DNA of 32,583 bases from Flavobacteriales bacterium (GTDB taxonomy: Bacteria > Bacteroidota > Bacteroidia > Flavobacteriales_D > Sanyastnellaceae). The notes beneath the pieces are model-generated. The model searched no databases, was not told the DNA's origin, and worked only from the letters and a program-made list of their open reading frames with translations. The position numbers and the translations under genes were made by a program. Shown piece after piece: positions 15,801-29,410 of this stretch (position 1 is its first letter; each line of letters begins with the position of its first letter). The DNA is taken from assembly GCA_029238785.1 (NCBI GenBank), contig JAQWFN010000090.1, forward strand, positions 1 through 32,583. The letters are read 5' to 3'.

Positions 15801-16529
15801 GTAAGTAGAAAAAATCAATTCGGGGTCGATAATTAGCGCGTAGTTAGGATCGTATCCTTTAGGGAACTCGAAGCTCAAGTGGTTTTCATTCAACACATAC
15901 TTGCAGGGCACTCGTATGTTTTCTCCTGCAATTTCTTGGTAGGCGATGGGGGCTTGTTCGATGATTTCATGAGTGCTCAGGACGATGTGTAATCGTCCGT
16001 TTTTAATGCCGATGTTTTCCTGACCAAGATACTTGAGTTGAATGTCCTCTGCCTTTGATCCGGGTGCGATGATGAAATCATATTTCAGCGCGCCGTCTTT
16101 ACTGTAGAAGTGGGCGTCAATGCCGGGATAGATTTGATTGAGCCAAGCTCCTCGGTAGGAAGCCACTTTTGATGCCCACTTGGATTTATCATCACCCAGA
16201 AAAAAATTGTAATACGTATCGAATGGAGCTTCGCCTTCGAATGAATGGGATTGCGCATTGATGAAGGACACCTTGTAGGCGTGACCATAAGCCTTTGCAT
16301 CAGGATTGTTGCTTCCACCACCATGGATGGCTTGAATTTCACTGAAGTCGTGCATGTCGTAAAGCAGCGCACCTTCTTCGATGTAAAGTTGACCACTATT
16401 TAACTTGAAAGCGCCATGAACGTGTGCGGGCCATTGTCCTTTGTTTTCAATCATAGGGAAACTGCTCTGCGTAAATCCGCTAAGTGTTAAGAGCAGGAGG
16501 GAGAAGATCAATAGGTACCTTATCATCAT
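12801..16529 (-). CDS. Giant SBBP/PKD surface protein with T9SS type B sorting domain
   Basis: This 1242-residue secreted protein begins with a signal peptide (ending SGFTQ) and a DUF7948-like domain (FPMIENKGQWPAHVHGAFKL). About six SBBP-type propeller blades follow, each opening with a form of YSTFIGG or WSTYYGGSGDD. Then come one PKD domain (VSWDFGDNTQSNTFSPQHQY), three or four Ig-like Cys-containing repeats, and a C-terminal gliding-motility type B signal (VPNAFSPNGDEENDVLFV, then NRWGELVFES). It should be exported by the type IX system and held on the cell surface with the overlapping PorP/SprF protein. The role is probably adhesion or gliding; the ligand is unknown. The start is ATG at 16529, or 16526. 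A TTG at 16535 is less likely. Confidence 0.93.
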   Translation of the reverse strand: MMIRYLLIFSLLLLTLSGFTQSSFPMIENKGQWPAHVHGAFKLNSGQLYIEEGALLYDMHDFSEIQAIHGGGSNNPDAKAYGHAYKVSFINAQSHSFEGEAPFDTYYNFFLGDDKSKWASKVASYRGAWLNQIYPGIDAHFYSKDGALKYDFIIAPGSKAEDIQLKYLGQENIGIKNGRLHIVLSTHEIIEQAPIAYQEIAGENIRVPCKYVLNENHLSFEFPKGYDPNYALIIDPELIFSTYSGSFSDNFGFTATFDNDGHLYSGSSAFGNGYPTTLGAYQEVWGGGDGQGNLAGTDIAISKYELDGTSMIYSTFIGGANDELPHSLICNDAGELIVLGTSSSPNYPTSSSANSSNFQGGSNIAPSGVGVQYVNGSDIVITKLSASGASLIASTFLGGSGNDGVNASPILKFNYADEFRGEVELDEDENILIASCTYSNDFPILNGLQNSNAGGLDGIITKLNPELSEIIWSTYYGGSGDDGVYSLAVSDANDIAFCGGTTSANLNFLNNWEPNYQGGSADGFLGRIQGDGSSITAGTYIGSPAYDQSYFVELDGDNQVHIYGQTQAPGSTFIFNADYGTPSSGMHVAKFSDDLNTLIWSTVFGTGSGEPNLSPTAFLVDVCGKIYLSGWGGSTNTSSNPNTDNVFNMDITPDAFQSATNGSDFYILVIEDDASALVYASYFGGLTSNEHVDGGTSRFDRKGQIYQSVCAGCGSNDDFPIFPANAHSPTNNSNNCNNGVFKFDFELPITIADFNLPPTICANEAIPFINNSVNISQVSWDFGDNTQSNTFSPQHQYLEPGVYEVTLAVSNPLTCNMSDTLRRTIEIVEANVSTEALAQLCAGDSLTIGLMNENPEFAYTWIPSTGLSSPNSANSFLIAENDEFYTLLIDTGVCVDTLYQEIQVDALPFNVSPDLILCNEEEIELNVSNYPEGTSIIWSDQFNFSTVLNDNNNDPDIAITPDGPITYYVSLSTEFCSREAEVNIEFINSQTLIEGDLVACFGDTISLNVLNPSNLLDYSWTSSDAVILSGENSTSITAIVQNDALFTVFADNGNGCTSEDDIFVQVSTLNPNSINAIASPSLIQSDESSVLTANPPGYEYIWSPEEGLNQTTGQSVIASPAESTIYNVQVIDEDCIYDASVELRVLDFTCGPPNVYVPNAFSPNGDEENDVLFVRANFVTDMKLQIFNRWGELVFESTKLSDGWDGTYKGKDADPAVFVYHLTVVCEDGQEYFEKGNITLLR

Positions 16530-16567
16530 TGCCAAGTTAATGAATTATGTGGCTAATTAGGAGATGC

Positions 16568-16634: not shown

Positions 16635-18206
16635 TTAATCGCAATTCAGGCACTTTATTTCGTCTTGGAGTACCAAAACTGATTTTCCTTTCAGGTTTCT
16701 CGGCATGTAATTTTTAAATCCGGCTCTGCCTTTCGTTATACGATCGAGGTTTTTGGGGAGCGACATCACCGTGCTGTCGGGCAAGAAGAGCAACAAATCC
16801 AGTTCGTGCATGCGGTATTTATCTTCAAGGTCTCCTGAGAAGTGGGCTTGAAGAAAAAGCGTATCGTTTTCGAATCGATAATTATAATCCATGCGGTCTG
16901 CAATTTCTAGGGCTTCAGACCTTGTAGAACCTTGAACAGAGAAGCGTGATTCAAGGCGGGGCTTGTCTTCGCTAGTAGAGCTTATTCTGAATTTAGGAAA
17001 GCCATAGATAATTCGATCGCCATCAATTTTCATGAGTTCGTGGTAGTTGCCATCACTCAATTCAATCTGATTATGAAAGTATTCATCGTTTTCAATCACC
17101 AGCACCAAAGAATCATTTGAAATGTTGAGTGTTTGTGTTCTCATTTCAAGGCTAGCTTCAGAGCTGTATTTCGTTCCTTGTGATATTCCCACAGTAATTG
17201 CAAGAGCAACACCGATGATGAACAGCACGAAAAGACTTACGCCAATACCTTTTACTCGATTTGTACTTCTGATCAGCAAGGTAATCCCAAGATAGATGAG
17301 GCTAATCAGAGGAACTCCCGCTAGCAGAATAATAGCAATTGTGGCTAAGATGAGCATCGTAGGATTGATGAAGATGAAGTCTTGAAGGAAAGAATAACTC
17401 ACTGCTTCTCCGATGGGAGTTCCTTGAGTGAAGCCAATTATTCCTACGATTAATCCAACCGACATCATCAATCCAAAAATGAGGGCTGCTCCGCCAATCA
17501 AGACACGTAGAATGTGAGCGATTCCTCCAGCCACTTTCTCTACGTTTTCGGCCACCTTTTTGGAACCCGTTTTGCTAAAACGTTCTCCCTTTTCAGCGGC
17601 CTTTTTTCCAAAACCCTTGATCGATTCCCCCATGTTATTCAGCTCCTCGTTGATGCTTCGAGAGATGTTTTCGACATTGATTTGTTCTCCTCTCATGTGG
17701 AGTTTTTCTGCGCGTGTTTTAGCTTCGGGAATTAGCACCCAGAGTAGGATGTAGATTGGGATTCCAGCAAAACCAAGAAGCACAAGCGCAATAAAAATGG
17801 CTCTAAGCCAGAGCGGGTCCCACCCAAGGTAATGGCTAAATCCAGAACAAACGCCTCCAAGGATTCCTTCTTCCGTATCGCGATAGAACTTTCTGTTTTT
17901 GCGCGTGCTGTTTGAAGCAGTATTGTTGAAGTTGCTTTCTTCCTCGCTTTCATATTGCTCAGGTTTTCCCATGATGAGAATGACCTCTTCAACATCTGCG
18001 TTGGTGATGATTTGTTTGGCGTCGTTCAGTTTTTCGCTGAATAATTCTGCAATTCGTGCTTCTATATCTGCTATGATTTCGTCACCACCTTCTTGATTGC
18101 CGTAGGCCAATTCAATTGTTTTGAGGTAGTTGAGCAGGTTTTGATAGGCCTGTTCATCGATATTAAAGGCGAAACCGCCAATGTTTGCTGTGATGGTCTT
18201 GTTCAT
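16635..18206 (-). CDS. PspC-domain membrane protein
   Basis: This 523-residue protein has a soluble N-terminal domain (about 1-95, GGFAFNIDEQAYQNLLNYL) and then a PspC domain (about 104-172: RKFYRDTEEGILGGVCSGFS with helix LRAIFIALVLLGFAGIPIYI). A charged amphipathic linker (SIKGFGKKAAEKGERF) is followed by three further membrane segments (near GGAALIFGLMMSVGLIVGII, ILATIAIILLAGVPLISLIY and VSLFVLFIIGVALAITVGIS). A C-terminal extracytoplasmic domain ends in the CLNC pair. PspC proteins relate to the phage-shock envelope-stress response; this long Bacteroidota form is usually encoded with a PadR regulator. Its ATG overlaps the padR stop by four bases. Fold calls are firm; the role in envelope stress is inferred. 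Confidence 0.9.
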   Translation of the reverse strand: MNKTITANIGGFAFNIDEQAYQNLLNYLKTIELAYGNQEGGDEIIADIEARIAELFSEKLNDAKQIITNADVEEVILIMGKPEQYESEEESNFNNTASNSTRKNRKFYRDTEEGILGGVCSGFSHYLGWDPLWLRAIFIALVLLGFAGIPIYILLWVLIPEAKTRAEKLHMRGEQINVENISRSINEELNNMGESIKGFGKKAAEKGERFSKTGSKKVAENVEKVAGGIAHILRVLIGGAALIFGLMMSVGLIVGIIGFTQGTPIGEAVSYSFLQDFIFINPTMLILATIAIILLAGVPLISLIYLGITLLIRSTNRVKGIGVSLFVLFIIGVALAITVGISQGTKYSSEASLEMRTQTLNISNDSLVLVIENDEYFHNQIELSDGNYHELMKIDGDRIIYGFPKFRISSTSEDKPRLESRFSVQGSTRSEALEIADRMDYNYRFENDTLFLQAHFSGDLEDKYRMHELDLLLFLPDSTVMSLPKNLDRITKGRAGFKNYMPRNLKGKSVLVLQDEIKCLNCD

Positions 18207-18541
18207 GATTTGGCCGATTTAGAAGTCGTTAATGTTACAGCATTGCTGAGCTCTTTCCAGGTTTTATCGAGCTCCTTGAGAAACATGCTGCCGGTTTCCG
18301 TTAATGAATAGTATTTGCGTGGCGGACCAGAATTTGATTCTTCCCAGCGGTATTGGAGTAGTCCTGCATTCTTCAATCTTGTGAGTAAAGGGTAGAGGGT
18401 GCCTTCCACGATGATCAGTTTGGCATCTTTAAGTGATGCAATGATATCAGAAGGATAGGCCTCTTGCTTATCAAGAATGGAAAGAATGCAATACTCCAAC
18501 ACCCCTTTACGCATTTGGGCTTTTGTGTTTTCGATGTTCAT
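18203..18541 (-). CDS. PadR-family transcriptional regulator
   Basis: This 112-residue winged-helix repressor shows the PadR pattern QMRKGVLEYCILSILDKQEA, YPSDIIASLKDAKLIIVEGT and LYPLLTRLKNAGLLQYRWEE, with PPRKYYSLTETG on the wing. A short C-terminal helix serves for dimerisation. PadR proteins usually repress their own promoter and an adjacent membrane protein gene. Here the gene overlaps the PspC gene by four bases and a promoter with an inverted repeat lies directly upstream. It probably controls the two-gene operon in response to an unknown membrane-related signal. Confidence 0.93.
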   Translation of the reverse strand: MNIENTKAQMRKGVLEYCILSILDKQEAYPSDIIASLKDAKLIIVEGTLYPLLTRLKNAGLLQYRWEESNSGPPRKYYSLTETGSMFLKELDKTWKELSNAVTLTTSKSAKS

Positions 18542-18545
18542 TCAG

Positions 18546-18596
18546 CTTGTGTTTAATGCAAATATATATCTAAAAGAAGGTACTATGTAACACAAG
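18546..18596 (-). promoter_or_regulatory. padR promoter with flanking inverted repeat (candidate operator)
   Basis: The minus strand carries a full-consensus -7 box TATATTTG (18559-18566), 17 bases before the padR ATG. It is flanked by two inverted arms: CTTGTGTT (plus strand 18546-18553) and AACACAAG (18589-18596). The sequence AAGGTACT is also directly repeated at 18577-18584 and 18594-18601. These arms are good candidates for the PadR binding site, giving autoregulation. Confidence 0.5.
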
Positions 18597-18678
18597 GTAC
18601 TTTTAAAATTTGCTATTCATCTAAATGAGGACGAGCAAAGTCCTTTCGATTTGTCGTATGTGCTTGATAATGAAACCT

Positions 18679-18725
18679 TATGATATCATATTCGTAAATA
18701 AGCTTCCATGTTGCAAGATACATGG
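18679..18725. promoter_or_regulatory. Palindrome and hairpin ahead of the 33-residue peptide gene
   Basis: TATGATATCATA (18679-18690) is a perfect 12-bp palindrome. Sixteen bases later CCATGT (18706-18711) and ACATGG (18720-18725) form a perfect hairpin with an 8-base loop. The hairpin ends 25 bases before the ATG at 18751, so it could lie in the 5' leader. No convincing -7 box was found here. Confidence 0.35.
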
Positions 18726-18750
18726 CTTAAACACTTAAAACTAAAAACAT

Positions 18751-18852
18751 ATGGCTACTATTCGAACCAAAGCTCGGACCTTTAGTCCGGGTGCACGAAA
18801 AACAGTAATATTCTTGTTAGGAATCGGAGCATTAGTACTTTTGCTTGTATAA
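18751..18852 (+). CDS. Putative 33-residue membrane peptide
   Basis: ATG at 18751 and TAA at 18850-18852 enclose a peptide starting MATIRTKARTFSPGARKT, a basic stretch, followed by one hydrophobic helix (VIFLLGIGALVLLLV) that ends the protein. This tail-anchored-like layout (positive inside, helix last) is typical of real small membrane proteins. It lies in the 650-bp spacer between padR and the MBOAT gene and reads towards the 55-residue lipoprotein gene and a terminator. No family recognised. It could be a stress peptide linked to the neighbouring PadR/PspC genes, but that is only inference. Confidence 0.6.
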   Translation: MATIRTKARTFSPGARKTVIFLLGIGALVLLLV

Positions 18853-18944
18853 CAAATTTGGGATTGCAAAAAGGAGGTTGTATTTTCCTCATACTTTTGA
18901 AACCAAAATAGAGTCGGTCTCGTAAGACATATGTATTACAGATC

Positions 18945-18952
18945 TAACTTTA
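18945..18952 (+). promoter_or_regulatory. Possible -7 box of the 55-residue lipoprotein gene
   Basis: TAACTTTA is 7 of 8 to TAnnTTTG and lies 13 bases before the ATG at 18966. No clear -33 element is seen. Confidence 0.3.
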
Positions 18953-18965
18953 AACCAAATTTGAA

Positions 18966-19133
18966 ATGAATATTACGGAAGAGAAGTACCACGAGGTACT
19001 CCAGAAACTTATTATGTTGTTTCTAGGCTTGCTCACCATGAGCGTTGTTCTTACTTCTTGCCACGCATCAGAGTCTTGTGCGGCATATGGCGACATTGAT
19101 CATACAGAACACCCCCTACAAATTTCAGAGTAA
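18966..19133 (+). CDS. Putative 55-residue small lipoprotein
   Basis: This frame runs from ATG at 18966 to TAA at 19131-19133. The peptide has a charged N-terminus (MNITEEKYHEVLQK), a hydrophobic helix (LIMLFLGLLTMSVVL), and then TSC, which resembles a lipobox with the cysteine at residue 32. A short acidic/His tail contains CAAYGD. The N-region is longer and more acidic than usual, so an internal ATG (residue 17 or 25) may be the true start. A strong terminator follows 33 bases after the stop codon on the same strand, which supports real transcription. Family not recognised. Confidence 0.55.
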   Translation: MNITEEKYHEVLQKLIMLFLGLLTMSVVLTSCHASESCAAYGDIDHTEHPLQISE

Positions 19134-19166
19134 AACTGATTTAGTTTTGACTCCAAAGATTACAAG

Positions 19167-19192
19167 GCCAGCTCATTGAGTTGGCTTTTTTT
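19167..19192 (+). terminator. Rho-independent terminator of the small-protein transcript
   Basis: GCCAGCTC (19167-19174) and GAGTTGGC (19178-19185) form an 8-bp stem with one G.T pair and a 3-base loop, followed by seven T. The U-tract is only on the plus strand, so it ends transcripts of the small genes at 18751-19133. The MBOAT gene stop lies three bases later on the other strand. Confidence 0.85.
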
Positions 19193-19194
19193 GT

Positions 19195-20919
19195 TTAGAA
19201 CTGGAAGTAGATGAAGGGTTGCGCATCCGCACTAATTACTTGGTATAAGACGAGTAATGCCACAACTGTAATCCCCAGTTGAAGTGGGATGGGGAGGGAG
19301 ATAAAGGTGTTTCTGTACCACATCTTCCATTTTGAAGGCAGCCAGTGGATTAAATACCCCAAAATCATCACTACAAACACTGGGGCAAAACCAGTAATGA
19401 CCTCCCAAGCGATACTTAAGTCCATCTTTCTAATAATCTGGTTCAACATGGTATTGGCATTCAAAAGTTCTTCCAAGATATTATGCGCTTCGCCAATATC
19501 TTCCCAGGAGTTATTTGAGCCACTTCGGAACCAAATTCGGGTGAAACTGATGAATTGAAAGGTAAGAAAGATCCCGAGCACACGGTTCCACCATTTGCTT
19601 TTGTTTTTCCACGGACTAACGCGGTTCCAAAGTTTAAAAACGACCAGGCCTAAACCATTTAAAGCCCCCCAAATAACGAAGTTCCAGCTAGCTCCGTGCC
19701 ACAATCCACCAAGAAGCATGGTCATCATCATGTTGATGTTGGTGGTGCTCCATTTTCCAAAAGAGGGGATAAACCTACCCAAGATATAAGCGAGCAATAA
19801 GATTCCAATAGTTAGCCCTAAAACAAACCAAGACCCTGAGATGAAAAAGATGAAGGCCACAATAAAGCTCAAAGAGACAAAACTGAACAATGATCCTCCA
19901 CGATTTCCACCCATAGGAATGTACAAGTAATCTTTAAGCCATGAGCTTAAACTCATGTGCCATCGCTTCCAAAAGTTCCCTACGCTGTCTGCCTTGTAAG
20001 GAGAGTTGAAGTTTTGAGGAAGTGTAAATCCAAGCAATAGTGCGATGCCAATAGCGATGTCGGTATACCCTGAGAAATCGGCGTAAACCTGCAAGCTGTA
20101 ACCATAAAGCGCCATGAGGTTTTCAAAACCGGTGTAGGAGGCAGGTGCTTCAAAAACTCGATCAATAAAATTCAAGGCGAGGTAATCGGCTAAAAAGAGT
20201 TTTTTCAACAAGCCATTCAAAATCCAAAATAAAGCAAGTCCGAAAGTAGCCTTACTCAACTGGTATTTCTGGTACAGCTGTGGAACAAAATCAGCAGCAC
20301 GAACTATTGGTCCGGCCACCAATTGAGGAAAAAAGCTCACATAAAAACCAAAGTCGATGATGTTCTTAACGGGTTTTACATCTTTTCTGAAGATATCCAC
20401 GGCATACGAGATGGTTTGAAAAGTGTAAAAACTGATGCCCACAGGCAGAGCAATGGTTTCAAAACGGAAGCCAGTTCCGAAGAGTTCATTCGAAAGTTTT
20501 GCAAAGTGATTGATGGGGTGGTAGGCTGTTCCAAAAAGGTTATTGAAGCTATCTGCGAAAAAGTAGGCGTACTTAAAATAGATCAGTATGAGTAGGTTTA
20601 CGGTAATGCTCAGGGCCAACCACAATTTTCGATGAATTTGAACTTCACTTTTGAAAATGGCATTTCCAATAAAATAATCTGAAACTGTAGAAAACAGGAG
20701 CAAGTAGAAGAACCACTCAGAGGTTTTGTAGTAAAAGTAGATACTCACCAAAAACAAGAAGCCGTTTCTGACAGCTGTATGTTTGTGCACAAGGCTATAA
20801 GCAAGCAACACGAAAGCGAAAAAGTACCAAAAGAGTAAATTGGTAAAAATCAGCGGCGAGCTTTTATCAAACAAGACGACTTGCTTGATGGATTCCCAAG
20901 ATATTTCAAGTAAGGTCAT
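19195..20919 (-). CDS. MBOAT-family O-acyltransferase (AlgI/PatA-like)
   Basis: This 574-residue polytopic inner-membrane protein moves an acyl group, typically acetyl, across the membrane for attachment to an exported glycan. The MBOAT core is clear: ALPVGISFYTFQTISYAVDI (158-177), FFPQLVAGPIVRA, YADFSGYTDIAIG, NFWKRWHMSLSSW with H321, and GGLWHGASWNFVIWG with the conserved catalytic H408. Its length and opening are like AlgI and PatA. Its ATG overlaps the stop of the upstream SGNH gene by four bases, and it is the last gene of a four-gene operon. The partnership with SGNH proteins matches PatA/PatB peptidoglycan O-acetylation and AlgI/J/X alginate acetylation. The glycan acceptor cannot be read from sequence; the LysM partner favours peptidoglycan. 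Confidence 0.93.
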   Translation of the reverse strand: MTLLEISWESIKQVVLFDKSSPLIFTNLLFWYFFAFVLLAYSLVHKHTAVRNGFLFLVSIYFYYKTSEWFFYLLLFSTVSDYFIGNAIFKSEVQIHRKLWLALSITVNLLILIYFKYAYFFADSFNNLFGTAYHPINHFAKLSNELFGTGFRFETIALPVGISFYTFQTISYAVDIFRKDVKPVKNIIDFGFYVSFFPQLVAGPIVRAADFVPQLYQKYQLSKATFGLALFWILNGLLKKLFLADYLALNFIDRVFEAPASYTGFENLMALYGYSLQVYADFSGYTDIAIGIALLLGFTLPQNFNSPYKADSVGNFWKRWHMSLSSWLKDYLYIPMGGNRGGSLFSFVSLSFIVAFIFFISGSWFVLGLTIGILLLAYILGRFIPSFGKWSTTNINMMMTMLLGGLWHGASWNFVIWGALNGLGLVVFKLWNRVSPWKNKSKWWNRVLGIFLTFQFISFTRIWFRSGSNNSWEDIGEAHNILEELLNANTMLNQIIRKMDLSIAWEVITGFAPVFVVMILGYLIHWLPSKWKMWYRNTFISLPIPLQLGITVVALLVLYQVISADAQPFIYFQF

Positions 20920-22202
20920 TCTTGATTGCTGTTGTTTGTCAAATATTTTTTCTCGAGGTGAGTTCCATAAGCTTGGCGAATGGCTTCAAACATCATGTCT
21001 GCCTGAAGCACATATCCTTCCCTGCTGAAGTGGATTTTATCTGCTTTCGCCAAACCGGCCTTTTCCCAGTCAAGTATGCTTCCTAATCCGCCCATTACTT
21101 CAAAGAGGTCGTAAACGGCGCCATTATATTCTTCAGCCAATTCATACATGGCTTCTTGCACTACAAGGGCATTTTTGTTGGGGTGTTTCCTTCTGTAGTA
21201 GCTGTCGTTATTGGTGATCCACAAGAACTGAACATTGGGCCTTACAGCTCGAAATTGCTCAGCAAGTTCTTTATAACGGAGCTTAAATTCTTCTTTGTTG
21301 AAATCGCTTTTACTCATGTAAGCATCGTTAATGCCTATGCCAAAAACAACGAGATCAGCGTTGAGTAATTCGAGTTCTTTAGGCATTTGTTCGCAGCGGA
21401 GGTATGATTTGGTACTTGCTCCATTAACACCTATTTCGTGGTAGGCAATACCGCCTTCATTATTATCGAGTAAACCGCCATAGATGCTTACGCTTTGACC
21501 TTCATCAAGATAAAAACGCAATTGCAAACTGTCTTGGGCTTCTTCCCATACATAGGTGCTTGTGCGAAGAAGGGTATCAACAATCACTTGATCTGGATGG
21601 AGTAGGGTGAGGTCGGGCTGAAGCTCAACGTTGTGAATGAGGGTAAAGGCATGAAAGCCATATCTGCTCGAATCGCTTCTTATGGCGAAAAGGTCTAATC
21701 CACAGGTGTCAGACATGCTGCTCACTTCCATCCCACACATTCCCCAAATTGCTTGGTGCTTATTGTGCGCACAACGCTGGGCATCCCACTCTCCAATACG
21801 CTCAAAACGCAGGTTACTTGGTCCGTTTGTTTTGGCGAGCTTGAAGGGAAAAAACAATCCTCTCTTAGCATCCATTCCAGGGGTGATGTTTTGAAAATGC
21901 TCCCGGAGTCGTTCACTGAGCACTCCAGCTTGCACATGGCTGCCTCCCATATGCACAATGTTGAATGTGCTGTTTTCCTCAAAAAGTGCTTGGTCCATCT
22001 TTTCCCATAGGAATTGATACGCATTTGGTCCGGAAGGAAAAATCAGTTCATTTTTATCGAGCTTCAAGAAATCGTAATGGGGCAGAGGCAAGGGCACGGG
22101 TTCATAATCAAGGCTCTTGGTTTTGGGCGTTTCTGAAGTATTCAGAACGGCCATGCTTGCACTGAAAAGCGCTACGATTCCTGTTACAGCTAGAAATTTC
22201 AT
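20916..22202 (-). CDS. SGNH-fold periplasmic protein, variant GDS motif
   Basis: This 428-residue protein has an N-terminal signal or anchor segment (MKFLAVTGIVALFSASMAVL). The SGNH fold shows a block I variant HMGGSHVQAG with the nucleophile candidate S88 (the usual GDS Asp is Gly), block III FGIGINDAY, and the DxxH pair D388-H391 in DKIHFSREGY. It probably transfers or removes acyl groups on a periplasmic glycan, using acyl supplied by the MBOAT protein whose gene it overlaps by four bases. ATG at 22202 directly follows the upstream gene's stop (TAGTATG). An ATG at 22217 would overlap the upstream gene by 14 bases and add MEKIS. The Ser/Asp/His set looks intact, so activity is plausible despite the altered block I. 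Confidence 0.87.
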   Translation of the reverse strand: MKFLAVTGIVALFSASMAVLNTSETPKTKSLDYEPVPLPLPHYDFLKLDKNELIFPSGPNAYQFLWEKMDQALFEENSTFNIVHMGGSHVQAGVLSERLREHFQNITPGMDAKRGLFFPFKLAKTNGPSNLRFERIGEWDAQRCAHNKHQAIWGMCGMEVSSMSDTCGLDLFAIRSDSSRYGFHAFTLIHNVELQPDLTLLHPDQVIVDTLLRTSTYVWEEAQDSLQLRFYLDEGQSVSIYGGLLDNNEGGIAYHEIGVNGASTKSYLRCEQMPKELELLNADLVVFGIGINDAYMSKSDFNKEEFKLRYKELAEQFRAVRPNVQFLWITNNDSYYRRKHPNKNALVVQEAMYELAEEYNGAVYDLFEVMGGLGSILDWEKAGLAKADKIHFSREGYVLQADMMFEAIRQAYGTHLEKKYLTNNSNQE

Positions 22203-22203
22203 A

Positions 22204-23682
22204 CTAATCTTTTCCATTTCTAAGTTTCCAAGCAGCATACTCTTTCATAAATGCTTGATTGAAAAGCTCTGCGATTTCTTTGGCTCCTTTAGCGGTGAAG
22301 TGCACGTAGTCTTTTCCTGCCAGCGGTGGATCAGCATTTACCCAACTTGCCATGGAGTTTTTGCCTCCCATCACTTCATAAATGTCCCAAAACGCACAAC
22401 CATTATTTAACGCAGCGGCTTTTAAGGCATCTCTCACCTGAGTTAAGTAGGGGTAAGTAACGAAGTCTTCTCCTACTTTGGTGGCCATGTCTGAAGGACC
22501 AATCACTACAAAAGTGGCTTCGGGGAGCAGTTGTTTTAGTCGGTTTATCTGTGCAGCAAACCAACGTCCGTAGTTTTGTGCTTGAGTAGAATCTTTCACA
22601 TAAGGCACGCTATTTCCGCCATATTGCAGCAAGACCAATCTGGTGTTCAAATGTTTGTATTGTTCTGCAAGTTGGCTTTGGTCTATTTTCTTGAATAAAG
22701 TTCCTGAGCTTCCTCGCATTGGAATATTGTGCACCTGAACTCCTCGGTAACTTCCAAAGTTGACAGCGTAAAACTCTGGTGAAGCCTCTCCAATGACTTC
22801 TATTTTGAAGTTTTTGACACTTTCTTGGAAGTTGATGGACTTGTGTTTAAAATCGTTGCTGATTCCAAGGCTATCGCTTGCAATAATACTATCGTTAAGC
22901 CAGTAGTTGATGCGCGCAGGACTCGGTGTATGACCGTAGAAAATTCCAGCTCTTTGGAAACTTCTGGTGTTGGAATAGCCCAATCTGGATGGTTCAAAAA
23001 GTACAAATGCATTGCTATCTTGGATGCTTTGTGCTTGTCCGAAAGCAGCAAGCAAGCCATAGCGTTTATGCTCAATTCGTTCGTCTTTCTTACCGTAAAG
23101 CGTGAAGCGTTCGAAGCTTTTAATGTCTTTTTGTTTGATGGCTGATGAGGGAACTACTTCAACCACGGGTACAAGTCCCGGACCTTTTCCTCCCCATTTC
23201 CCTTGCCAGTTTTTTCTTAGAACGTTGGTTATTCTATCAGTTTCAATTTGAGAATCGCCATAATGAAGCACGTCAACTAAGGCTTTATCGCTATTTTCAA
23301 GCGCCTCGAAAAGGTCATCAAAAAAGCTTTTATCTTTATTGGGTAGTTGAATTTGGAGTCGTTCAATGGCTTTTTGAATGGCCGCTTCTTTTAATCGAGC
23401 AATTTCAGCTGAATCAATTGTTTCGTTTTCATTTTCTGGCTGAAGATCGAGCTCGTTTTGAATGCTATCTTCTTCTAAATGATAGCTCGCAAGTAGTGCA
23501 TTCACATCAAGCTTTTCTTTCTTTTTCTTGAAGGGGTTGTAATCGGCCGTTTTGGCAAATTTCAACTCGAGATTGTTTCCAAGTTGAATGTTGTTTTCAG
23601 GCCAAAGGGCAGAAATAGTGAAAGAAGAAGCACCAACGATGAAGAGGCAAAGGAATGTTGTAAACGGTGAAATCTGACTCAT
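22204..23682 (-). CDS. SGNH-fold periplasmic protein with coiled-coil N-region
   Basis: This 492-residue protein opens with a signal or anchor segment (FTTFLCLFIVGASSFTISAL), then a charged helical stretch (about 50-115, with AEIARLKEAAIQKAIERLQI). The SGNH domain has block I LHYGDSQIETD with nucleophile S144, block III changed to LQYGGNSV, and D458/H461 in KDYVHFTAKG. HYGDSQ is the form seen in AlgX/PatB-like acyltransferases. The gene overlaps the LysM gene by four bases, and the next SGNH gene starts one base after its stop. The two SGNH proteins share the closing pattern YEVMGG/FEVMGG near the C-terminus, so they are paralogues, possibly one transferase and one esterase. Confidence 0.87.
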   Translation of the reverse strand: MSQISPFTTFLCLFIVGASSFTISALWPENNIQLGNNLELKFAKTADYNPFKKKKEKLDVNALLASYHLEEDSIQNELDLQPENENETIDSAEIARLKEAAIQKAIERLQIQLPNKDKSFFDDLFEALENSDKALVDVLHYGDSQIETDRITNVLRKNWQGKWGGKGPGLVPVVEVVPSSAIKQKDIKSFERFTLYGKKDERIEHKRYGLLAAFGQAQSIQDSNAFVLFEPSRLGYSNTRSFQRAGIFYGHTPSPARINYWLNDSIIASDSLGISNDFKHKSINFQESVKNFKIEVIGEASPEFYAVNFGSYRGVQVHNIPMRGSSGTLFKKIDQSQLAEQYKHLNTRLVLLQYGGNSVPYVKDSTQAQNYGRWFAAQINRLKQLLPEATFVVIGPSDMATKVGEDFVTYPYLTQVRDALKAAALNNGCAFWDIYEVMGGKNSMASWVNADPPLAGKDYVHFTAKGAKEIAELFNQAFMKEYAAWKLRNGKD

Positions 23683-25055
23683 TTGGGTGAATGTATGATG
23701 AGTTTTTGTCCAGGACGTATGTCTGTACTAATCTTGTTCCATTTCATGATGTCTTCTGCTGAAACACCAGGGAATTTCTGAGCAATTTGCCAAAGACTGT
23801 CTCCACTTTTAACGGTGTAGGTCTCGGTTTCATTTGAATTTGGAGGACGATCAGCAACTTTATTTGAGGCTCTGGGCTCGCTTGTCGCCTTAGACTTATT
23901 TTGAGCTTTATCAGCTGTATAAATGAGGAGTCGTTGACCAACATTAATGCGGTCGCTTCTTAAGTTATTCCAGTCCATGATTTGACTTACCCTCACTCCA
24001 AAGTTATCTGCTATTTTTCCGAGTACATCACCGCTGCGCACAATGTATTCGTTTTCCTTGCCGCTTTCCACAATTTTCTCTTTGGCTTTAACTGGAGGCT
24101 TCCATTGATATAAGCTATCAGCCATGCTCAAGAACAACTCCATTTTTTCGACAGGGATTATAATGGGCACTTCTCGATGAGGAGCAGGGAGTCGGTTTCC
24201 TATGTAAGCCGGGTTCAGCTCTTCAAAGGTGCTTTTTTTCAAACCAAGAACTTGCACTAAGGCTTCTTTATAAATGGTATCTGCAATGGGAATGGCATCA
24301 AAACTATTGAGTTCATTCAGCCAAAAAACCAATTGGTTTTCTCGTTCAAAATTCCCTCGCAGGCGCATGCAAACTTTCAAAGCGGTGAACACCTGGAACA
24401 TTTCAAGATCGGCAACAATTTCAGATTCCTTGCGTGCATTGGTCCATTTAGCTCCTTTCACATGAGCCGCGATGGTTTTGATGTGGTTCATTTCAAAAAC
24501 CTCGAAGTAGGCTCGAAGCAGTTCAGTAGTGGCTTCTGTGGCGAGAGAAGCAGCTCTGCGTTCATCGATGTCTTGATCGATATGCAGCCCTTGTCTTTTG
24601 GCATTCACAAAATCAAGTGCCCAAAGACCAGCTTGATCTGAACTGTTTCTAAAAGTTGGGTTTAAACCACTTAGTACCATCGTCAAAAAAGCATAATCCC
24701 GATCCATTTCAACCCGATCGAGGTGTTTATGCAATAGTGGGAAATACAAATCGGCTAAGGACTGTATTTCTAGAAAGCGCTCACAATTTTGGCTTAAGAG
24801 TAGGTCAATATATTCCATCTCGAGTTCCTTGTTTGAAGGAATTGTGAGCAGGGCTTGTTCAAGAGCGCTTGGAGCAGCTATTTGTTCTTTGAAAGTTGGC
24901 GGACAAGGTTTGTTTGTGCTCAAACGTTGGGAGATCTTTTGATGGAACCACGGGAGTGAAGCCTGATTCCATCGTTCCGCGAGCTCATTAGGAGCATGCT
25001 GCGCCGATACTGCGAAGGAAAGCGGGAATAAAAAAAGAAAAACCAACTTTTTCAT
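23679..25055 (-). CDS. LysM protein with degenerate MltD-like lytic transglycosylase domain
   Basis: This 458-residue periplasmic protein has a signal peptide MKKLVFLFLFPLSFAVSAQ. A lytic-transglycosylase-like domain (about 105-310) is recognisable by LNP at 131-133, QAGLW (141-145), GLHIDQDIDERR (156-167) and a later LNPAYIGNRLPAP. The catalytic Glu of the family's ES-x-FNP motif is Leu here (L128 in MVLSGLNP), and the YNAG motif reads HVKG (198-201), so it should be inactive. Two LysM domains follow (335-380 and 411-458), joined by a Ser/Lys/Asn-rich linker, and should bind peptidoglycan. It is the first gene of the SGNH/SGNH/MBOAT operon. ATG at 25055 is chosen because it gives a standard signal peptide and follows a -7 box. 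Confidence 0.88.
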   Translation of the reverse strand: MKKLVFLFLFPLSFAVSAQHAPNELAERWNQASLPWFHQKISQRLSTNKPCPPTFKEQIAAPSALEQALLTIPSNKELEMEYIDLLLSQNCERFLEIQSLADLYFPLLHKHLDRVEMDRDYAFLTMVLSGLNPTFRNSSDQAGLWALDFVNAKRQGLHIDQDIDERRAASLATEATTELLRAYFEVFEMNHIKTIAAHVKGAKWTNARKESEIVADLEMFQVFTALKVCMRLRGNFERENQLVFWLNELNSFDAIPIADTIYKEALVQVLGLKKSTFEELNPAYIGNRLPAPHREVPIIIPVEKMELFLSMADSLYQWKPPVKAKEKIVESGKENEYIVRSGDVLGKIADNFGVRVSQIMDWNNLRSDRINVGQRLLIYTADKAQNKSKATSEPRASNKVADRPPNSNETETYTVKSGDSLWQIAQKFPGVSAEDIMKWNKISTDIRPGQKLIIHSPK

Positions 25056-25059
25056 ACTG

Positions 25060-25067
25060 TAAAGATA
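25060..25067 (-). promoter_or_regulatory. Promoter -7 box of the acylation operon
   Basis: The minus strand reads TATCTTTA, 7 of 8 to TAnnTTTG, four bases before the ATG at 25055. It predicts a nearly leaderless mRNA for the LysM-SGNH-SGNH-MBOAT operon. Confidence 0.5.
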
Positions 25068-25117
25068 AAGGCCGTGCATGGGCTGTTTGAAAGAGAAAGG
25101 CATGAAGTTATGAACGA

Positions 25118-25132
25118 CAAACTATGAGTTTG
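25118..25132. promoter_or_regulatory. Dyad in the divergent LysM/Hpt spacer
   Basis: CAAACT-ATG-AGTTTG is a perfect 6-bp inverted repeat with a 3-base centre, roughly midway between the divergent genes at 25055 and 25233. It could be an operator for either operon. Confidence 0.3.
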
Positions 25133-25232
25133 CCTTAAAAGCTTCAGTTTTTTCCTACAAAGAAGCATTGTATTCAACGAAACTTTAGAAGAAAAATGTC
25201 CGTAATAGAACATAACCGCTTTAAACACCACT

Positions 25233-25712
25233 ATGAAAATGCACACTCACTATGCCAATGCGCTAAGCGCACGCTTACAAGAAATGAAAGCGAAAGGCTA
25301 CTCCTCAGGATCGATACAACTCGACTCTAAACCTCATGATTTTACCTTCTCGAGCTTCTTTGAATCGAGTCATTTTCAAGGGTTCTATATGGGTGGTTTG
25401 CCGCATGTTCTTGAACTATTTGAGATTTTCCGGACAGCTTTTCCGAACAAGTGGGATAGCTTAACAAAAGGTATGAATTGTGGAGATGAACTGCAGATAT
25501 ATCATGCTGCCCACAATCTTAAACCCTTGTTTAGAATGATTGGTATAGATCGGTTCAACAAGCACTTAAATATGCTAACTTCAAAAGAAAGCGATTTAGG
25601 TGAAGAAAAGCTTGCTGCCTTTCAAAGCATTGAGTCAAGGCTTCCGCAAATCATGTACATGACAGCGATTGAAATTGCTCGAATGAAGAACTTCATTAAA
25701 GCAACAGCCTAA
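25233..25712 (+). CDS. Histidine phosphotransfer (Hpt) domain protein
   Basis: This 159-residue soluble protein has a four-helix Hpt-like region in its second half. The phospho-acceptor is probably H94 in IYHAAHNLKPLFRMIG, which matches the Hpt signature (AHxLKxxxxxxG). Helices before (LPHVLELFEIFRTAFPNKWD) and after (KLAAFQSIESRLPQI) fit the bundle. The first about 45 residues are not Hpt-like. It lies 30 bases before a LytTR response regulator gene in the same direction and probably hands phosphate to it. No kinase gene is adjacent; the donor may be distant. ATG 25233 or 25239 could be used. Confidence 0.85.
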   Translation: MKMHTHYANALSARLQEMKAKGYSSGSIQLDSKPHDFTFSSFFESSHFQGFYMGGLPHVLELFEIFRTAFPNKWDSLTKGMNCGDELQIYHAAHNLKPLFRMIGIDRFNKHLNMLTSKESDLGEEKLAAFQSIESRLPQIMYMTAIEIARMKNFIKATA

Positions 25713-25742
25713 ACACACTAACACTAGCAAACACCCTACATT

Positions 25743-26444
25743 ATGAAGTTGAAATGTTTAATTGTGGACGATGAGCCGATGGCGAGAGCTTCGGTGAAAC
25801 ATTTGTGCGAAAGACATGAAGCCCTAAAGTTCGTTGGATCTTGTGAGAATGCGAAGCAAGCATTGGATTTTCTCTCTGGTAATCATGTTGATCTTGTATT
25901 TCTTGATATTGAAATGCCGGGTTTAGATGGAATTCAGTTTTTGAAGTCACTAAAAAAAGCACCAAATATCATCATCACAACATCTCACAAAAACTATGCG
26001 TTCGAAGCTTTTGAGGTAAAGGCCCTCGACTTTATTTCAAAACCAATAGAATACCGCCGTTTTAAGGAGGCTGTTCAAAAGGTGATCGACCTTGAAGCCT
26101 TGAAGAATAATGAGAATACCGAAGAAGGTTTTATGTATGTAAAAACCGATGGCAAACTCACAAGGGTAGATTATACCGATATTCTCTACATCGAGAGCAT
26201 GCGTGATTATGTTAACATTAGAACTAAAGAAGGTCGCTTAGTGGTGCACTCAACCCTCAAGAAAATTCACGAGTCACTTTCTGATGATCGAAGATTTGTT
26301 CGTGTCCATAGAAGTTTCATTTGTAACATCAATCAAGTTGAAGACTTATTGAAGAACGAAGTTATCATTGGCGACTACTCATTACCTGTTTCAAGATCGC
26401 ACAAGCAAGGTTTAATCTATAGTTTGAGAGAAAAATCAGCCTGA
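25743..26444 (+). CDS. LytTR-family DNA-binding response regulator
   Basis: This 233-residue two-domain regulator has an N-terminal receiver (about 1-122) with D9/D10, phospho-acceptor D55 (LVFLDIEMPGLDG), switch T80 and K100 (FISKPIEY). A C-terminal LytTR DNA-binding domain (about 130-228) shows MYVKTDGKLTRVDYTDILYI, FVRVHRSFICNINQVE and LPVSRSHKQG. It is most like the LytR/AlgR regulators common in Bacteroidota. Its partner is the Hpt protein just upstream. Targets are unknown; candidates include its own operon and the divergent envelope acylation operon. Confidence 0.94.
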   Translation: MKLKCLIVDDEPMARASVKHLCERHEALKFVGSCENAKQALDFLSGNHVDLVFLDIEMPGLDGIQFLKSLKKAPNIIITTSHKNYAFEAFEVKALDFISKPIEYRRFKEAVQKVIDLEALKNNENTEEGFMYVKTDGKLTRVDYTDILYIESMRDYVNIRTKEGRLVVHSTLKKIHESLSDDRRFVRVHRSFICNINQVEDLLKNEVIIGDYSLPVSRSHKQGLIYSLREKSA

Positions 26445-26520
26445 ATTACCAAAAATCGAAAATATTGGTCGGTTCATCGAAAGTTTACTCGGTCATTGAA
26501 AACACTCCATTACTTTAGTA

Positions 26521-26604
26521 TTGCGATAGAGGATGGTGAACTGAAATCGCAAACACAATTTATTGTGTTGGAGAGGGTTGGATGGTGTTCCAACCCTTTT
26601 TTTT
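26521..26604 (+). ncRNA. Structured 3' element or small RNA after the LytTR gene
   Basis: Three nested or successive perfect stems lie in 84 bases: TTGCGAT (26521-26527) with ATCGCAA (26546-26552), AACACAA-TTTA-TTGTGTT (26552-26569), and the terminator stem GGGTTGG/CCAACCC. A -7-like TACTTTAG (26511-26518) lies just upstream, so transcription starting near 26523 would give a short highly folded RNA. No open frame is evident. It may instead be the 3' UTR of the Hpt-LytTR mRNA. Confidence 0.4.
26575..26604 (+). terminator. Rho-independent terminator of the Hpt-LytTR operon
   Basis: GGGTTGG (26575-26581) pairs with CCAACCC (26590-26596) around an 8-base loop and is followed by eight T (26597-26604). 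Confidence 0.9.
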
Positions 26605-26646
26605 GTTTGTTTAACAGATGAGGTCCCTGAGATAAGTAATGATAAT

Positions 26647-26661
26647 AATAGCTTTGCTATT
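26647..26661 (+). promoter_or_regulatory. Promoter -7 box inside a dyad, for the 26676-29410 operon
   Basis: TAGCTTTG (26649-26656) fully matches TAnnTTTG and lies 19 bases before the ATG at 26676. It sits inside a perfect dyad AATAGC-TTT-GCTATT (26647-26661), so a regulator binding there would cover the -7 box. No clear -33 TTG is present, which also hints at activator or alternative control. Confidence 0.5.
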
Positions 26662-26675
26662 TTTAGCGGCCCAGA

Positions 26676-27251
26676 ATGAAAATACAGCTTAAAGCGCTCA
26701 CCATTGTTTTCTTGCTTATCTTACAGTTCAATGCTTTTGGACAATTGGATGAGCGCGAAAGCATGTTCAGACCCCTTATAGGAGGAGGCTTTTTGAGTGG
26801 AGGTAGTTTCTCGCCAAATCAATTGAATTATTTAAGTGGAGGCGTAGTTCGTGCAGGTCTTCAAACCACATTTCTCAAAAAACACAACGCGGCAATACTT
26901 CTTGGTATTAATCAATTTGATAGGGACGTTTTCTATCCCTTAATGCTTCAATTTCGTTGGGTGAATAAGCCCGATAAGGCTTTAGGATTCCTTACTTCAT
27001 TTGGATATTCACCAGGAAAAGGTGAGTTCGAAATCGAGAGCGATGATTACGAACTAGAAGGAGGCTTCTACTTGGAATTTGGTGCTCAGTGGAAATTTGA
27101 TTTGGGCGCTCAGTGGGCCATGATGCCGAGCATTTCAGTTTCTCGACAAAGAGCAATACTTGAATATAATCCTGAGTTTAGTTCGAGCTATGAGGTTCAA
27201 GACGACCGAATTGCAGTGGTGTTTGCTATTAATCTTCAACTCGGACATTAA
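26676..27251 (+). CDS. Small outer-membrane beta-barrel-like protein
   Basis: This 191-residue protein has a signal peptide (ALTIVFLLILQFNAFGQ). The mature sequence has alternating hydrophobic/polar strands with many Gly and aromatic residues (LSGGVVRAGLQTTFLKKHNA, ALGFLTSFGYSPGKG, GGFYLEFGAQWKFDLGAQWA), and the C-terminus ends in a strand (VVFAINLQLGH). This suggests an 8-stranded-type outer-membrane barrel, but no named family is recognised. Its stop codon overlaps the ATG of the CotH gene by one base (TAATG), so the two are translated together and probably work together. Confidence 0.78.
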   Translation: MKIQLKALTIVFLLILQFNAFGQLDERESMFRPLIGGGFLSGGSFSPNQLNYLSGGVVRAGLQTTFLKKHNAAILLGINQFDRDVFYPLMLQFRWVNKPDKALGFLTSFGYSPGKGEFEIESDDYELEGGFYLEFGAQWKFDLGAQWAMMPSISVSRQRAILEYNPEFSSSYEVQDDRIAVVFAINLQLGH

Positions 27252-29410
27252 TGATGAAACTCCTCTTCGCCACCGCTTTGCTGATACTATCTTCGATGCA
27301 TCTTCTGGCTCAAGAGCTTGTATTGTCTGAGTATGGACCAACAAGCGGATTTAATGATCATTCAGCGTGGTTTGAAGTTCAAAATAGGAGTGAAGAAGGA
27401 ATTAATTTAAGTGAACTTGAGCTCTATTTGAATGATGATCTCATTTATACTGGTCCAGATTCGCTGCTCGGTGTTGGAGGCTTTTTTGTTTTTCATGCTG
27501 ATGGATATAGAAGCAGCAGAAAACCACAACTGGCTCACCGAAGCATGTTTTCTCCCACTAGAGGGAGCTACATCTTGCACTTCAATAATACATCATCTTC
27601 ACTAAAAGAGCAATGTGTTCCCGAAGGCATGAGCTACGGATTAAATGAGAACAACAATGAAGTCCATTTCAGAATGGCGAGTAGAGGAGAAGAAAACGGA
27701 GGGGAAGAAGTGCTGTTTCTGCCCAATGATCCTTTACCAAGTTTAGCTTCAGGTTTCTATCCAAACCCAATTAGTGTGACTTTTGAACAGCAAGAGTGGG
27801 AAGGGCAAAAGACGGTTTATAGTTTAAACGGTGTTTCTCTTCAATCGAGCAATACAGAAGCATCTTCAAAAGGCATTTCTATCACCAATCAAAGCTTTGC
27901 AGATTTGAGTTACATCCCTGCTTCTGGTGAACACATCGAACCAAATGGAAATGTTCAAACAGCACAAACGATTCACGCTCAATCTTTCCAATACACCTGT
28001 GCCGTGAGTAAGGTTGTGCGCGAAGTTTATTTCATTGGTGAAGCGCTTTCAAACAAATATAAATTACCTGTAATCACGATCACTACTGAAGACGAAGCGC
28101 TCTTTGGAGCTAGAGGTATTTATGGATACGGCGAATCTGGACATAATTTTGATATGAAAGGAGAACTTTGGGAAAGAGATGCTAGTCTTCACTTTTTTGA
28201 TGACGGAGAATTGAAACTCAGTCAAGATGTAGGGCTTCGAATTCGCGGTAAATCAAGCCGATGGGCTCCCCAAAAGAGCTTTAAGATTTATGCGCGATCG
28301 GTCTATGGAAGAAACCAATTACCCAACGTATTTTTCGACGATGAGGTAGACTTTCTAAAGCGCATTAACCTTAGAAGTGCGCATAATGATTATATCCGAA
28401 GCATGATGACCGACCATGTGGCCATGACTTCGGCGAAAGAACAGAACTTCGATACGCCAAACAGCAAACATGCTATTCTTTTTCTGAATGGCGAGTTCTG
28501 GGGGGTCTATGCCATACAGGATAGTATGGATGAGCATTATCCAGATAGTTATTATGGTGTTGACGATGATAATGTTGAGTTGGTTGATGGGAGCGAGAGT
28601 AGCACCCTAAACTACACAGAGATCATCAACTATGCAGTGGCTCATCCAAACATGACTGATGAAGACGTGGCTTGGATTGAAGATCGAGTGGATTTACCTT
28701 CATTACTAGAATATCACGCCTTTCAGATTTATATGGCCAATTGGGACTGGCCTCAAAAAAATGTCAAAGCCTGGTTAAGTGAAGCCGAAAACCAAGATTT
28801 GCGCTATTTCTTTTTTGATTGTGATGCCTGCTTTAACGAATATGAAAATGAGAGTTTGGGAAGATTTTATCCAGAACTCAATACTTCACGACATTCGATA
28901 TTGCTCTCGAGTCTTTTAAGAAATGAGGAAGTGAGGAAACAATTCAGCAATACCTTAGTAACCTTGCTTCAAGGTCCTTTGAAAACAAGCACGCTCTTAA
29001 GTATTATTGATGAAACCGAGCAAAACATACAGCCGCACATTGATGAGCATATTGCACGTTGGGGTTATCCTCAAAACCGCTCAACTTGGGAGAATTCAGT
29101 TGAAAGTATGCGTTTGTTTGCAATCAAAAGACCTCAAAAGATTCAAGACATGGTGAGCTTACTTTTAGGTGATAAGATTGGAGTCTACCCTAATCCAGTT
29201 CAAGCTTGGAGTACTTTAAATTTGATTAGTTTTGGTTTGTTGACGGACGAATTTTCTTTTGAAATCTTTAACCTCAGTGGCATGAAGCTGCAAGAAGGGA
29301 TTTCAAACAATGAACAAGTGCCATTGAATGAGCTGTCGCCAGGAAATTACATTTTGAAGATCAATAAAGGCGGTTTTAATGCCTACACCCGCTTTGTAGT
29401 GATGCCCTAA
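27251..29410 (+). CDS. CotH-kinase-family protein with T9SS type A sorting tail
   Basis: This 719-residue secreted protein has a signal peptide (LLFATALLILSSMHLLAQ). A lamin-tail-like domain follows (about 20-115: LVLSEYGPTSGFNDHSAWFE). The CotH region (about 270-630) contains LRIRGKSSRWAPQKSFKIYA, LNGEFWGVYAIQDSMDEHYP, NWDWPQKNVKAW and FFFDCDACF, which correspond to the family's ATP/metal-binding motifs. The last about 75 residues are a type A type IX signal (VYPNPVQAWSTLNLI, ending NAYTRFVVMP). CotH proteins are atypical kinases that phosphorylate spore-coat or surface proteins. Here it would act outside the cell or on the surface, where the phosphate donor is unclear. ATG 27251 or 27254 may be used. 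Confidence 0.9.
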   Translation: MMKLLFATALLILSSMHLLAQELVLSEYGPTSGFNDHSAWFEVQNRSEEGINLSELELYLNDDLIYTGPDSLLGVGGFFVFHADGYRSSRKPQLAHRSMFSPTRGSYILHFNNTSSSLKEQCVPEGMSYGLNENNNEVHFRMASRGEENGGEEVLFLPNDPLPSLASGFYPNPISVTFEQQEWEGQKTVYSLNGVSLQSSNTEASSKGISITNQSFADLSYIPASGEHIEPNGNVQTAQTIHAQSFQYTCAVSKVVREVYFIGEALSNKYKLPVITITTEDEALFGARGIYGYGESGHNFDMKGELWERDASLHFFDDGELKLSQDVGLRIRGKSSRWAPQKSFKIYARSVYGRNQLPNVFFDDEVDFLKRINLRSAHNDYIRSMMTDHVAMTSAKEQNFDTPNSKHAILFLNGEFWGVYAIQDSMDEHYPDSYYGVDDDNVELVDGSESSTLNYTEIINYAVAHPNMTDEDVAWIEDRVDLPSLLEYHAFQIYMANWDWPQKNVKAWLSEAENQDLRYFFFDCDACFNEYENESLGRFYPELNTSRHSILLSSLLRNEEVRKQFSNTLVTLLQGPLKTSTLLSIIDETEQNIQPHIDEHIARWGYPQNRSTWENSVESMRLFAIKRPQKIQDMVSLLLGDKIGVYPNPVQAWSTLNLISFGLLTDEFSFEIFNLSGMKLQEGISNNEQVPLNELSPGNYILKINKGGFNAYTRFVVMP

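Follow-up and report, generated by a model that had tools for sequence, protein, structure and literature searches.

The window considered here, a stretch of 32,583 nucleotides from a Flavobacteriales bacterium (source contig C132, part of a 3.1-Mb draft genome), contains a four-gene unit on the minus strand, in the order LysM protein, SGNH1, SGNH2 and MBOAT acyltransferase according to the list of open reading frames (ORFs). With two Ape-type SGNH genes in tandem and an MBOAT gene after them, the unit is a Bacteroidota O-acetylpeptidoglycan (OAP) cluster, and it is headed by a pseudo-transglycosylase, a homolog of the lytic transglycosylase MltD without the catalytic glutamate (Glu). This Glu-less leader is what is new in an otherwise known kind of cluster. 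By analogy with the LtgA–Ape1 pair of Neisseria, we suggest, with a probability of about one half, that in this OAP cluster the LysM protein binds peptidoglycan and serves the Ape1-type enzymes as a partner without catalysis of its own. A further proposal is more tentative, and we consider it plausible rather than probable: the Bacteroidota machinery that O-acetylates and de-acetylates peptidoglycan would have acquired a dedicated pseudo-lytic-transglycosylase subunit, a Glu-less MltD binding the sacculus and switching on or positioning the Ape1-type SGNH enzymes.

The features of the unit are as follows.

23679..25103, minus strand: Glu-less MltD-type protein with two LysM domains, a 474-aa ORF; likely start 25055, signal peptide assigned by eye
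24354..24791, minus strand: SLT (transglycosylase-fold) domain, about residues 105–250 (Pfam, AlphaFold2 model, profile alignment)
24672..24674, minus strand: Leu codon, residue 144, at the position of the catalytic Glu (alignments)
24453..24467, minus strand: AHVKG, residues 213–217, replacing the AYNxG motif (alignments)
23916..24053, minus strand: LysM domain 1, about residues 351–396 (Pfam, AlphaFold2 model)
23691..23825, minus strand: LysM domain 2, about residues 427–471 (Pfam, AlphaFold2 model)
22204..23682, minus strand: SGNH1, predicted Ape1-type; N-terminal helix is probably a membrane anchor; GDSQIE ... DYVH (model, profiles)
20916..22238, minus strand: SGNH2, second predicted Ape1-type protein; GGSHVQ ... 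DKIH; likely start 22202 (profiles)
19195..20919, minus strand: MBOAT acyltransferase, PatA/DltB-like (Pfam, NCBIfam, PDB profile matches)
19198..19215, minus strand: C-terminal hexapeptide FIYFQF, candidate acyl-Tyr shuttle motif of PatA-type MBOATs (alignment)

The first-pass annotation, made from the sequence alone, had described this unit with its overlaps and a one-base gap, and the ORFs and junctions are as it described them. The LysM and SGNH1 genes overlap by four bases (23679–23682), as do SGNH2 and MBOAT (20916–20919), and one base separates the SGNH1 stop from the internal ATG of SGNH2 at 22202. The LysM protein had been placed at 23679–25055; the place is right, although the ORF itself runs to 25103, and 25055 is its third Met, where by eye an apparent signal peptide begins. 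In the operon, Pfam assigns two LysM domains to the first protein, along with an SLT domain that scores weakly (24.9 bits, cut-off 21.3), GDSL to both SGNH1 and SGNH2, and MBOAT to the last protein.

The LysM protein is an MltD by predicted fold, in its SLT and middle regions, by homology and by its C-terminal LysM domains, but it lacks the catalytic Glu and AYNxG. Its AlphaFold2 model (mean predicted local distance difference test score, pLDDT, 87.7) matches Pseudomonas aeruginosa MltD (8rhe) with Z 20.6 over 244 residues at a root-mean-square deviation of 4.0, while the scores for MltF (Z 14.0) and MltE (Z 13.1) are well below; the MltD-type homology initially proposed from motifs is thus borne out by the predicted structure. 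The pairwise alignment with P. aeruginosa MltD has Leu in the catalytic Glu column, and the multiple and profile–profile alignments agree with the earlier assignment of this Leu (then L128, residue 144 of the ORF) and of HVKG in place of YNAG. Where the window protein has MVLSGLNP and AHVKG, fifteen standalone MltD relatives have VVESALNP (or near) and AYNxG. The profiles of Glu-less and Glu-bearing MltD (25 and 15 proteins, respectively) align over 217 columns with probability 99.8 (hhalign). The window's own genome encodes three other SLT proteins (81–106 bits), one of which is an intact MltD (L073).

The residues of the two groups were compared in 99 sequences, 33 with Glu and 66 without, after ten near-copies or fragments had been dropped; the numbering is that of L073. 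The Glu column of the 66 Glu-less proteins is mostly Leu (36), the remainder being T (7), A (6), V, I and C (4 each), M and Q (2 each) and F (1). Both sets share S154, N157, G168, W170, L182, D189 and R191, and further T198, A200, A201, A221, G225, N316 and P317. Lost in the Glu-less set are Q171, M173, N223, G227 and many other residues, all invariant or nearly so in Glu-bearing MltD. A relocated catalytic acid was considered and rejected, as no conserved column of the 66 proteins holds an acidic residue peculiar to the Glu-less group. In the compared region just two acidic positions reach 75% conservation, D180 and E181 (window protein), and both are common in the Glu-bearing set too. An intact Glu elsewhere in the domain had been named at the outset as the observation that would speak against a dead enzyme, and neither the profile alignment nor the conserved acidic columns yielded one. 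Hence the window protein has probably lost transglycosylase activity.

Both SGNH proteins appear to be Ape1-type (peptidoglycan O-acetylesterase) rather than PatB-type, SGNH1 judging from its predicted structure and SGNH2 from profile comparison. The SGNH1 model (pLDDT 86.1) matches Ape1 4k3u with Z 37.5, covering 339 of 349 residues of 4k3u_B, and Campylobacter jejuni Ape1 8gld with Z 36.0, whereas the matches to PatB are much weaker (Z 14.6 for 8tlb over 190 residues, 13.7 for 7tlv) and cover fewer residues. Ape1 is also the top PDB match by profile for SGNH1 (E 6.6e-30) and SGNH2 (4k3u, E 3.3e-23), and no PatB chain occurs among the PDB profile matches of either at E≤1. Residues S144, D458 and H461 of SGNH1 are invariant in 36 sequences and align with Ape1; so are S100, D400 and H403 of SGNH2 in 11 sequences. 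We take the Ser and the DxxH to be catalytic. Thus, SGNH1 resembles Ape1 over nearly the whole chain, including Ser and DxxH, and SGNH2 resembles it by profile; unlike the Ape1 systems, the window has two tandem paralogues upstream of MBOAT, and the cluster has no evident PatB-like gene. However, the naming of the "ape" genes relied on sequence, and the protein first called Ape2 turned out to be PatB (PMC6174289). Hence one of the two window SGNH proteins may be the transferase.

The last gene of the unit encodes a protein with an MBOAT domain (PF03062, 78.9 bits). Its C-terminal FIYFQF is invariant in ten MBOAT sequences, and FxYxxF is seen in 130 of 135 MBOAT sequences longer than 400 aa, drawn from overlapping sets. 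The Tyr of this motif is the acetylated residue in PatA (PMC12148441). The domain together with the motif marks the window protein as PatA-type by sequence. The likeness to PatA/PatB invoked in the first-pass annotation therefore holds for the MBOAT with its shuttle motif, shared with PatA (PMC12148441), but less so for its partners, which look Ape1-like rather than PatB-like.

Clusters ape1b–ape1c–pat have been described, and Bacteroides and Porphyromonas proteins tabulated (Weadge 2005, PMC1199599). The order of SGNH, SGNH and MBOAT genes in the Bacteroides/Porphyromonas OAP cluster is that of the window; the difference is the Glu-less MltD leading the window unit, while for the Bacteroides cluster neither a transglycosylase nor a LysM gene is mentioned in the parts of that paper used here (PMC1199599). 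Homologous clusters starting with a GDSL gene of 221–236 aa may be a closer match to the Bacteroides cluster. The level of O-acetylation is 69.4% in B. fragilis and 27.0% in B. thetaiotaomicron (PMC1199599), and 56–66% is given for three Bacteroides species in a review (PMC11382707). Among the matches listed from the open-access literature we recognised no Glu-less transglycosylase in an O-acetylation operon, which does not prove absence.

The closest precedent is from Neisseria, where LtgA and Ape1 form a complex and Ape1 is enhanced by LtgA even though the substrate is not one used by LtgA itself; LtgA E481A strains show no morphological defect (PMC7083599). As in the window, a transglycosylase-fold protein is paired with an Ape1 enzyme; unlike the window protein, LtgA is catalytically active, and the pat operon there consists of patA, patB and ape1 (PMC7083599). 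Most simply, the Glu-less MltD with two Ape1-type proteins would be an LtgA–Ape1-like partnership made permanent. The MBOAT would load an acyl group, probably acetyl, onto the Tyr of its own C-terminal FIYFQF and pass it to an Ape1-type SGNH protein. Of the two SGNH proteins one, be it SGNH1 or SGNH2, probably transfers the group to peptidoglycan, and its counterpart probably takes it off again. The LysM protein, an MltD paralogue without catalysis, would act as the non-catalytic partner: anchored to the sacculus by its LysM domains, it would use its transglycosylase fold to dock with an Ape1-type enzyme and stabilise or stimulate it, as LtgA does with Neisseria Ape1. With two Ape1-type SGNH proteins in the unit, the activity assisted by the LysM protein could just as likely be de-acetylation as acetyl transfer. 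In many Bacteroidota, the leader of the operon that probably acetylates and de-acetylates the wall, a wall-binding protein without its cutting residue, is thus probably a helper or guide for its neighbours, not an enzyme.

The catalytic Glu is absent from all 12 operon-linked loci first examined, the window included (in one of them, L050, the contig ends inside SGNH2), and from all 16 further full-length linked copies in other genomes. Together, 28 of 28 alignable operon-linked copies in the family and order of the window lack it, and the frames are open in 28 genomes. Three short forms from two more genera (L191, L192, L194) are kept outside this count. Two of these (L191:7421-8098, L192:4873-5550), from two genomes of one genus, have 225 aa, with the SLT domain almost gone, and precede one SGNH gene and an MBOAT gene; the L191 form keeps LysM according to Pfam.

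The ratio of nonsynonymous to synonymous substitution rates (dN/dS) was calculated by the Nei–Gojobori method with our own script for two pairs of genomes, G013–G032, the one close pair, and G029–G010. In the close pair the LysM gene has a value of 0.066 (N-terminal part 0.058, SLT 0.035, middle 0.072, LysM part 0.142), with partner values of 0.015 for SGNH1, 0.037 for SGNH2 and 0.030 for MBOAT. The window–G001 pair is at or near saturation in dS. Since all 28 linked copies are Glu-less and the gene is under purifying selection in the close pair, the loss of Glu is a conserved state and not local decay.

Co-occurrence was assessed in 120 genomes, the window's own included. Those scoring at least 141 bits with the Glu-less profile (the next value is 124) were considered positive, 42 in total, and the cut-offs for orthologues were E≤1e-120 for MBOAT and E≤1e-30 for SGNH1. 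The MBOAT orthologue is present in 38 of the 42 positive and 23 of the 78 other genomes (Fisher p 4.9e-11), and SGNH1 in 39/42 and 35/78, respectively (p 1.2e-7), related genomes not being independent in either case. Six of these 23 genomes (G015, G066, G098, G111, G115, G118) carry short or divergent Glu-less LysM genes. Among the positive genomes, the gene is linked in 24, split from the unit by contig ends in G002 and located apart from SGNH1 in 15, with two exceptions discussed below. In 13 of the 15 stand-apart genomes the residue was read; G028 and G064 are assigned by profile only. SGNH1 and SGNH2 are each present in 14 of these 15, both being absent from G071 (77% complete); the MBOAT orthologue scores at least 824 bits in 13 and is in pieces in one, and G026 has no MBOAT match. 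These data support an association of the Glu-less protein with the MBOAT/SGNH unit even when unlinked. In five split-operon genomes, all that were tested (L157, L159, L160, L162, L163), SGNH1 adjoins a TPR-PD40-OmpA protein, a make-up that is presumably that of the type IX secretion system (T9SS) protein PorE.

The same linkage and co-occurrence with MBOAT would be expected if, as the first-pass annotation had proposed, the pseudo-transglycosylase guided acetyl transfer, presenting N-acetylmuramic acid sites to the SGNH and MBOAT proteins through LysM and possibly through the old groove. This would agree with the two LysM domains of the window protein, with LysM being matched in every one of the 44 scanned members (28 Glu-less, 16 Glu-bearing) and with the retained GxW and DxR. 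Still, we consider it unlikely, although it is the best of the alternatives: the SGNH proteins resemble Ape1 rather than PatB, the SLT model is unmatched at E 0.001 in 5/44 members, and the Glu-less set has lost Q171, M173, N223 and G227 (numbering of the genome's own intact MltD). With so many otherwise invariant groove residues gone, there is less reason to think that the dead cleft reads glycans, and to judge from the sequences, the LysM domains are the likelier glycan contact.

Slightly less likely again is that the LysM protein regulates active autolysins, competing with or modulating an intact MltD, and is merely co-expressed with the acetylation genes. There is a precedent in DipM, as inactive LytM-domain factors act on other wall enzymes (PMC10336132), and a match to the Glu-bearing MltD profile, in which Glu was not read in each case, is found in 41 of the 42 Glu-less-positive genomes (in pieces in G017 and G021). 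However, 73 of the 78 negative genomes match that profile as well, and therefore the intact MltD shows no specific association with the Glu-less protein, whose specific partners are SGNH1 and MBOAT.

The target could also be another envelope polymer, such as exopolysaccharide or lipopolysaccharide, or, on the model of the Dlt pathway, the group could be aminoacyl or a different acyl unit. The MBOAT indeed resembles DltB: the NCBIfam DltB model scores 149.5 bits, below its cut-off of 375, and DltB is among the PDB profile matches. Moreover, Dlt-like acylation clusters around the same SGNH family do exist in other Bacteroidota. In eight of eight such loci (L206, L208, L213, L217, L218, L220, L223, L227) a carrier-like ORF of 77–80 aa with GWDS adjoins MBOAT, and there is also a gene of 565–586 aa, with an AMP-binding domain in the one tested (L208). 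Neither an AMP-binding DltA nor a carrier DltC was found among the ten proteins scanned around the window operon (16635–29410), and the Ape1 fold, LysM and MltD all point to peptidoglycan, making this reading improbable for the window. Finally, that the LysM protein is the product of a decaying pseudogene kept by hitch-hiking in the operon is very improbable, as its strong sequence divergence and the 225-aa forms described above are outweighed by open frames in 28 genomes, a close-pair dN/dS of 0.066 (0.035 in the SLT part), conserved residues and persistence of the gene after the operon has split.

Several observations weigh against a non-catalytic partner of Ape1-type enzymes acting in acetylation. 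LtgA is Slt70-type, not MltD. In the more distant pair G029–G010, dN/dS of the LysM gene is 0.203, similar to 0.210 for SGNH1 (SGNH2 0.174, MBOAT 0.110; dS 1.05–1.50). In the two exceptional genomes, G063 and G030, the Glu-less gene lies at a distance from contig ends, and neither SGNH1 nor MBOAT has a match. The window's own genome has a third GDSL protein (C6) and a second, distant MBOAT (C74), and therefore a separate transferase elsewhere is possible. The related clusters with a carrier and an AMP-binding enzyme indicate that some members of the family may use an acyl group other than acetyl. Two further points come from the distribution of the operon.

The first is that the Glu is retained in some operons. 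A contig search with the SGNH1 profile, from which the best 80 of at least 590 loci were taken, showed a LysM/MltD gene just upstream in 52 loci, a contig end there in four and no such gene in 24. Out of the 52 upstream-linked homologues, 17 keep Glu (two pairs are near-copies), 31 lack it, and four are not readable at that column (L099, L119, L124, L134). Hence the operon position does not demand a dead enzyme. The Glu-bearing linked loci are titled Bacteroidales, Bacteroides, Draconibacterium, Chitinophaga and unplaced Bacteroidetes, with three Chlorobi bins, but most are metagenome-assembled genomes whose names may be wrong. The culturable, non-pathogenic Phaeocystidibacter luteus LMG 25704 (L113) has the operon with Met at the Glu position. 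The second is that the leader is often missing. SGNH1 homologues (E≤1e-30) occur in 70 of 395 genomes drawn across the phylum. One locus was taken from each of 40 of these 70, mostly from the top of the list and with the window's genome and G006 excluded, where linkage had already been established; a LysM gene is upstream in one (L196, Glu-less) and in none of the other 39. This rules out universality of the LysM gene and means that the LysM helper is dispensable in many lineages. Thus, the unit is conserved in the family and order of the window and is found in other Bacteroidota, as the genome-context survey proposed in the first-pass annotation has established, and its Glu-less leader is usual in the window's family and sporadic elsewhere, but not universal.

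That annotation also held that active relatives unlinked to SGNH and MBOAT genes would count against it. This is the case in part: Glu-bearing relatives exist, some of them unlinked and others (17 of 52) linked to these genes, but they stand apart from the Glu-less proteins on a quick tree of 88 LysM proteins. On this tree, for which six rows (near-copies or fragments) were dropped beforehand, one gapped row was left uncounted, no root was inferred and the program warned of long branches, the Glu state changes once. On the SGNH1 tree all 17 Glu-linked loci group with two loci lacking the gene (support 99, SH-like approximate likelihood-ratio test, SH-aLRT), with one long branch; of the 43 linked loci labelled Glu-less there, 39 read so, and L099, L119, L124 and L134 are not reliably readable. 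The single change and the SGNH1 grouping do not favour independent recent losses of Glu.

MltD copies were surveyed in 15 of the 17 Glu-linked genomes (two near-copies left out) and in five Glu-less-linked ones. Ten of the 15 have a single MltD match above 290 bits, presumably the operon copy (G516 has an additional 213-bit part match), and five have two. All five Glu-less-linked genomes keep at least one match above 290 bits, and therefore cutting could fall to another MltD where the operon copy is dead.

Peptidoglycan O-acetylation sets lysozyme resistance and restrains autolysins, but the literature consulted says little about how Bacteroidota place the acetyl groups. A transglycosylase that is conserved but apparently non-catalytic, heading the cluster, offers a direct handle on the spatial control of O-acetylation, and the phylum provides a natural comparison, the same operon with an intact or a dead MltD. 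If the partner reading is true, the LtgA–Ape1 observation extends beyond Neisseria to a transglycosylase fold used for a partner and not for the cut. On the more tentative subunit proposal, the fold with which an acetylation-blocked enzyme recognises its substrate would now control acetylation itself. Glu-bearing and Glu-less versions sharing one operon position would then be the trace of an enzyme that became a regulator, or of a replacement in the opposite direction.

Upstream of the operon, the window encodes a LytTR response regulator (25743–26444). Homologues of this regulator, with 42% and 39% identity, are also encoded in L041 and L042, at a distance of about 3 kb from the unlinked Glu-less gene; these loci may go back to a common ancestral locus that the three partner genes have since left. 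Further upstream is a CotH kinase domain protein with a type IX secretion sorting tail (27251–29410). Directly downstream of MBOAT are a PadR-type regulator and a PspC protein (16635–18541); in another locus, L237, a 111-aa ORF following MBOAT is PadR-like by eye. A PorP/SprF-family T9SS membrane protein, above the NCBIfam cut-off, is encoded at 11797–12804, with a 1244-aa ORF (12801–16535) directly upstream on the same strand.

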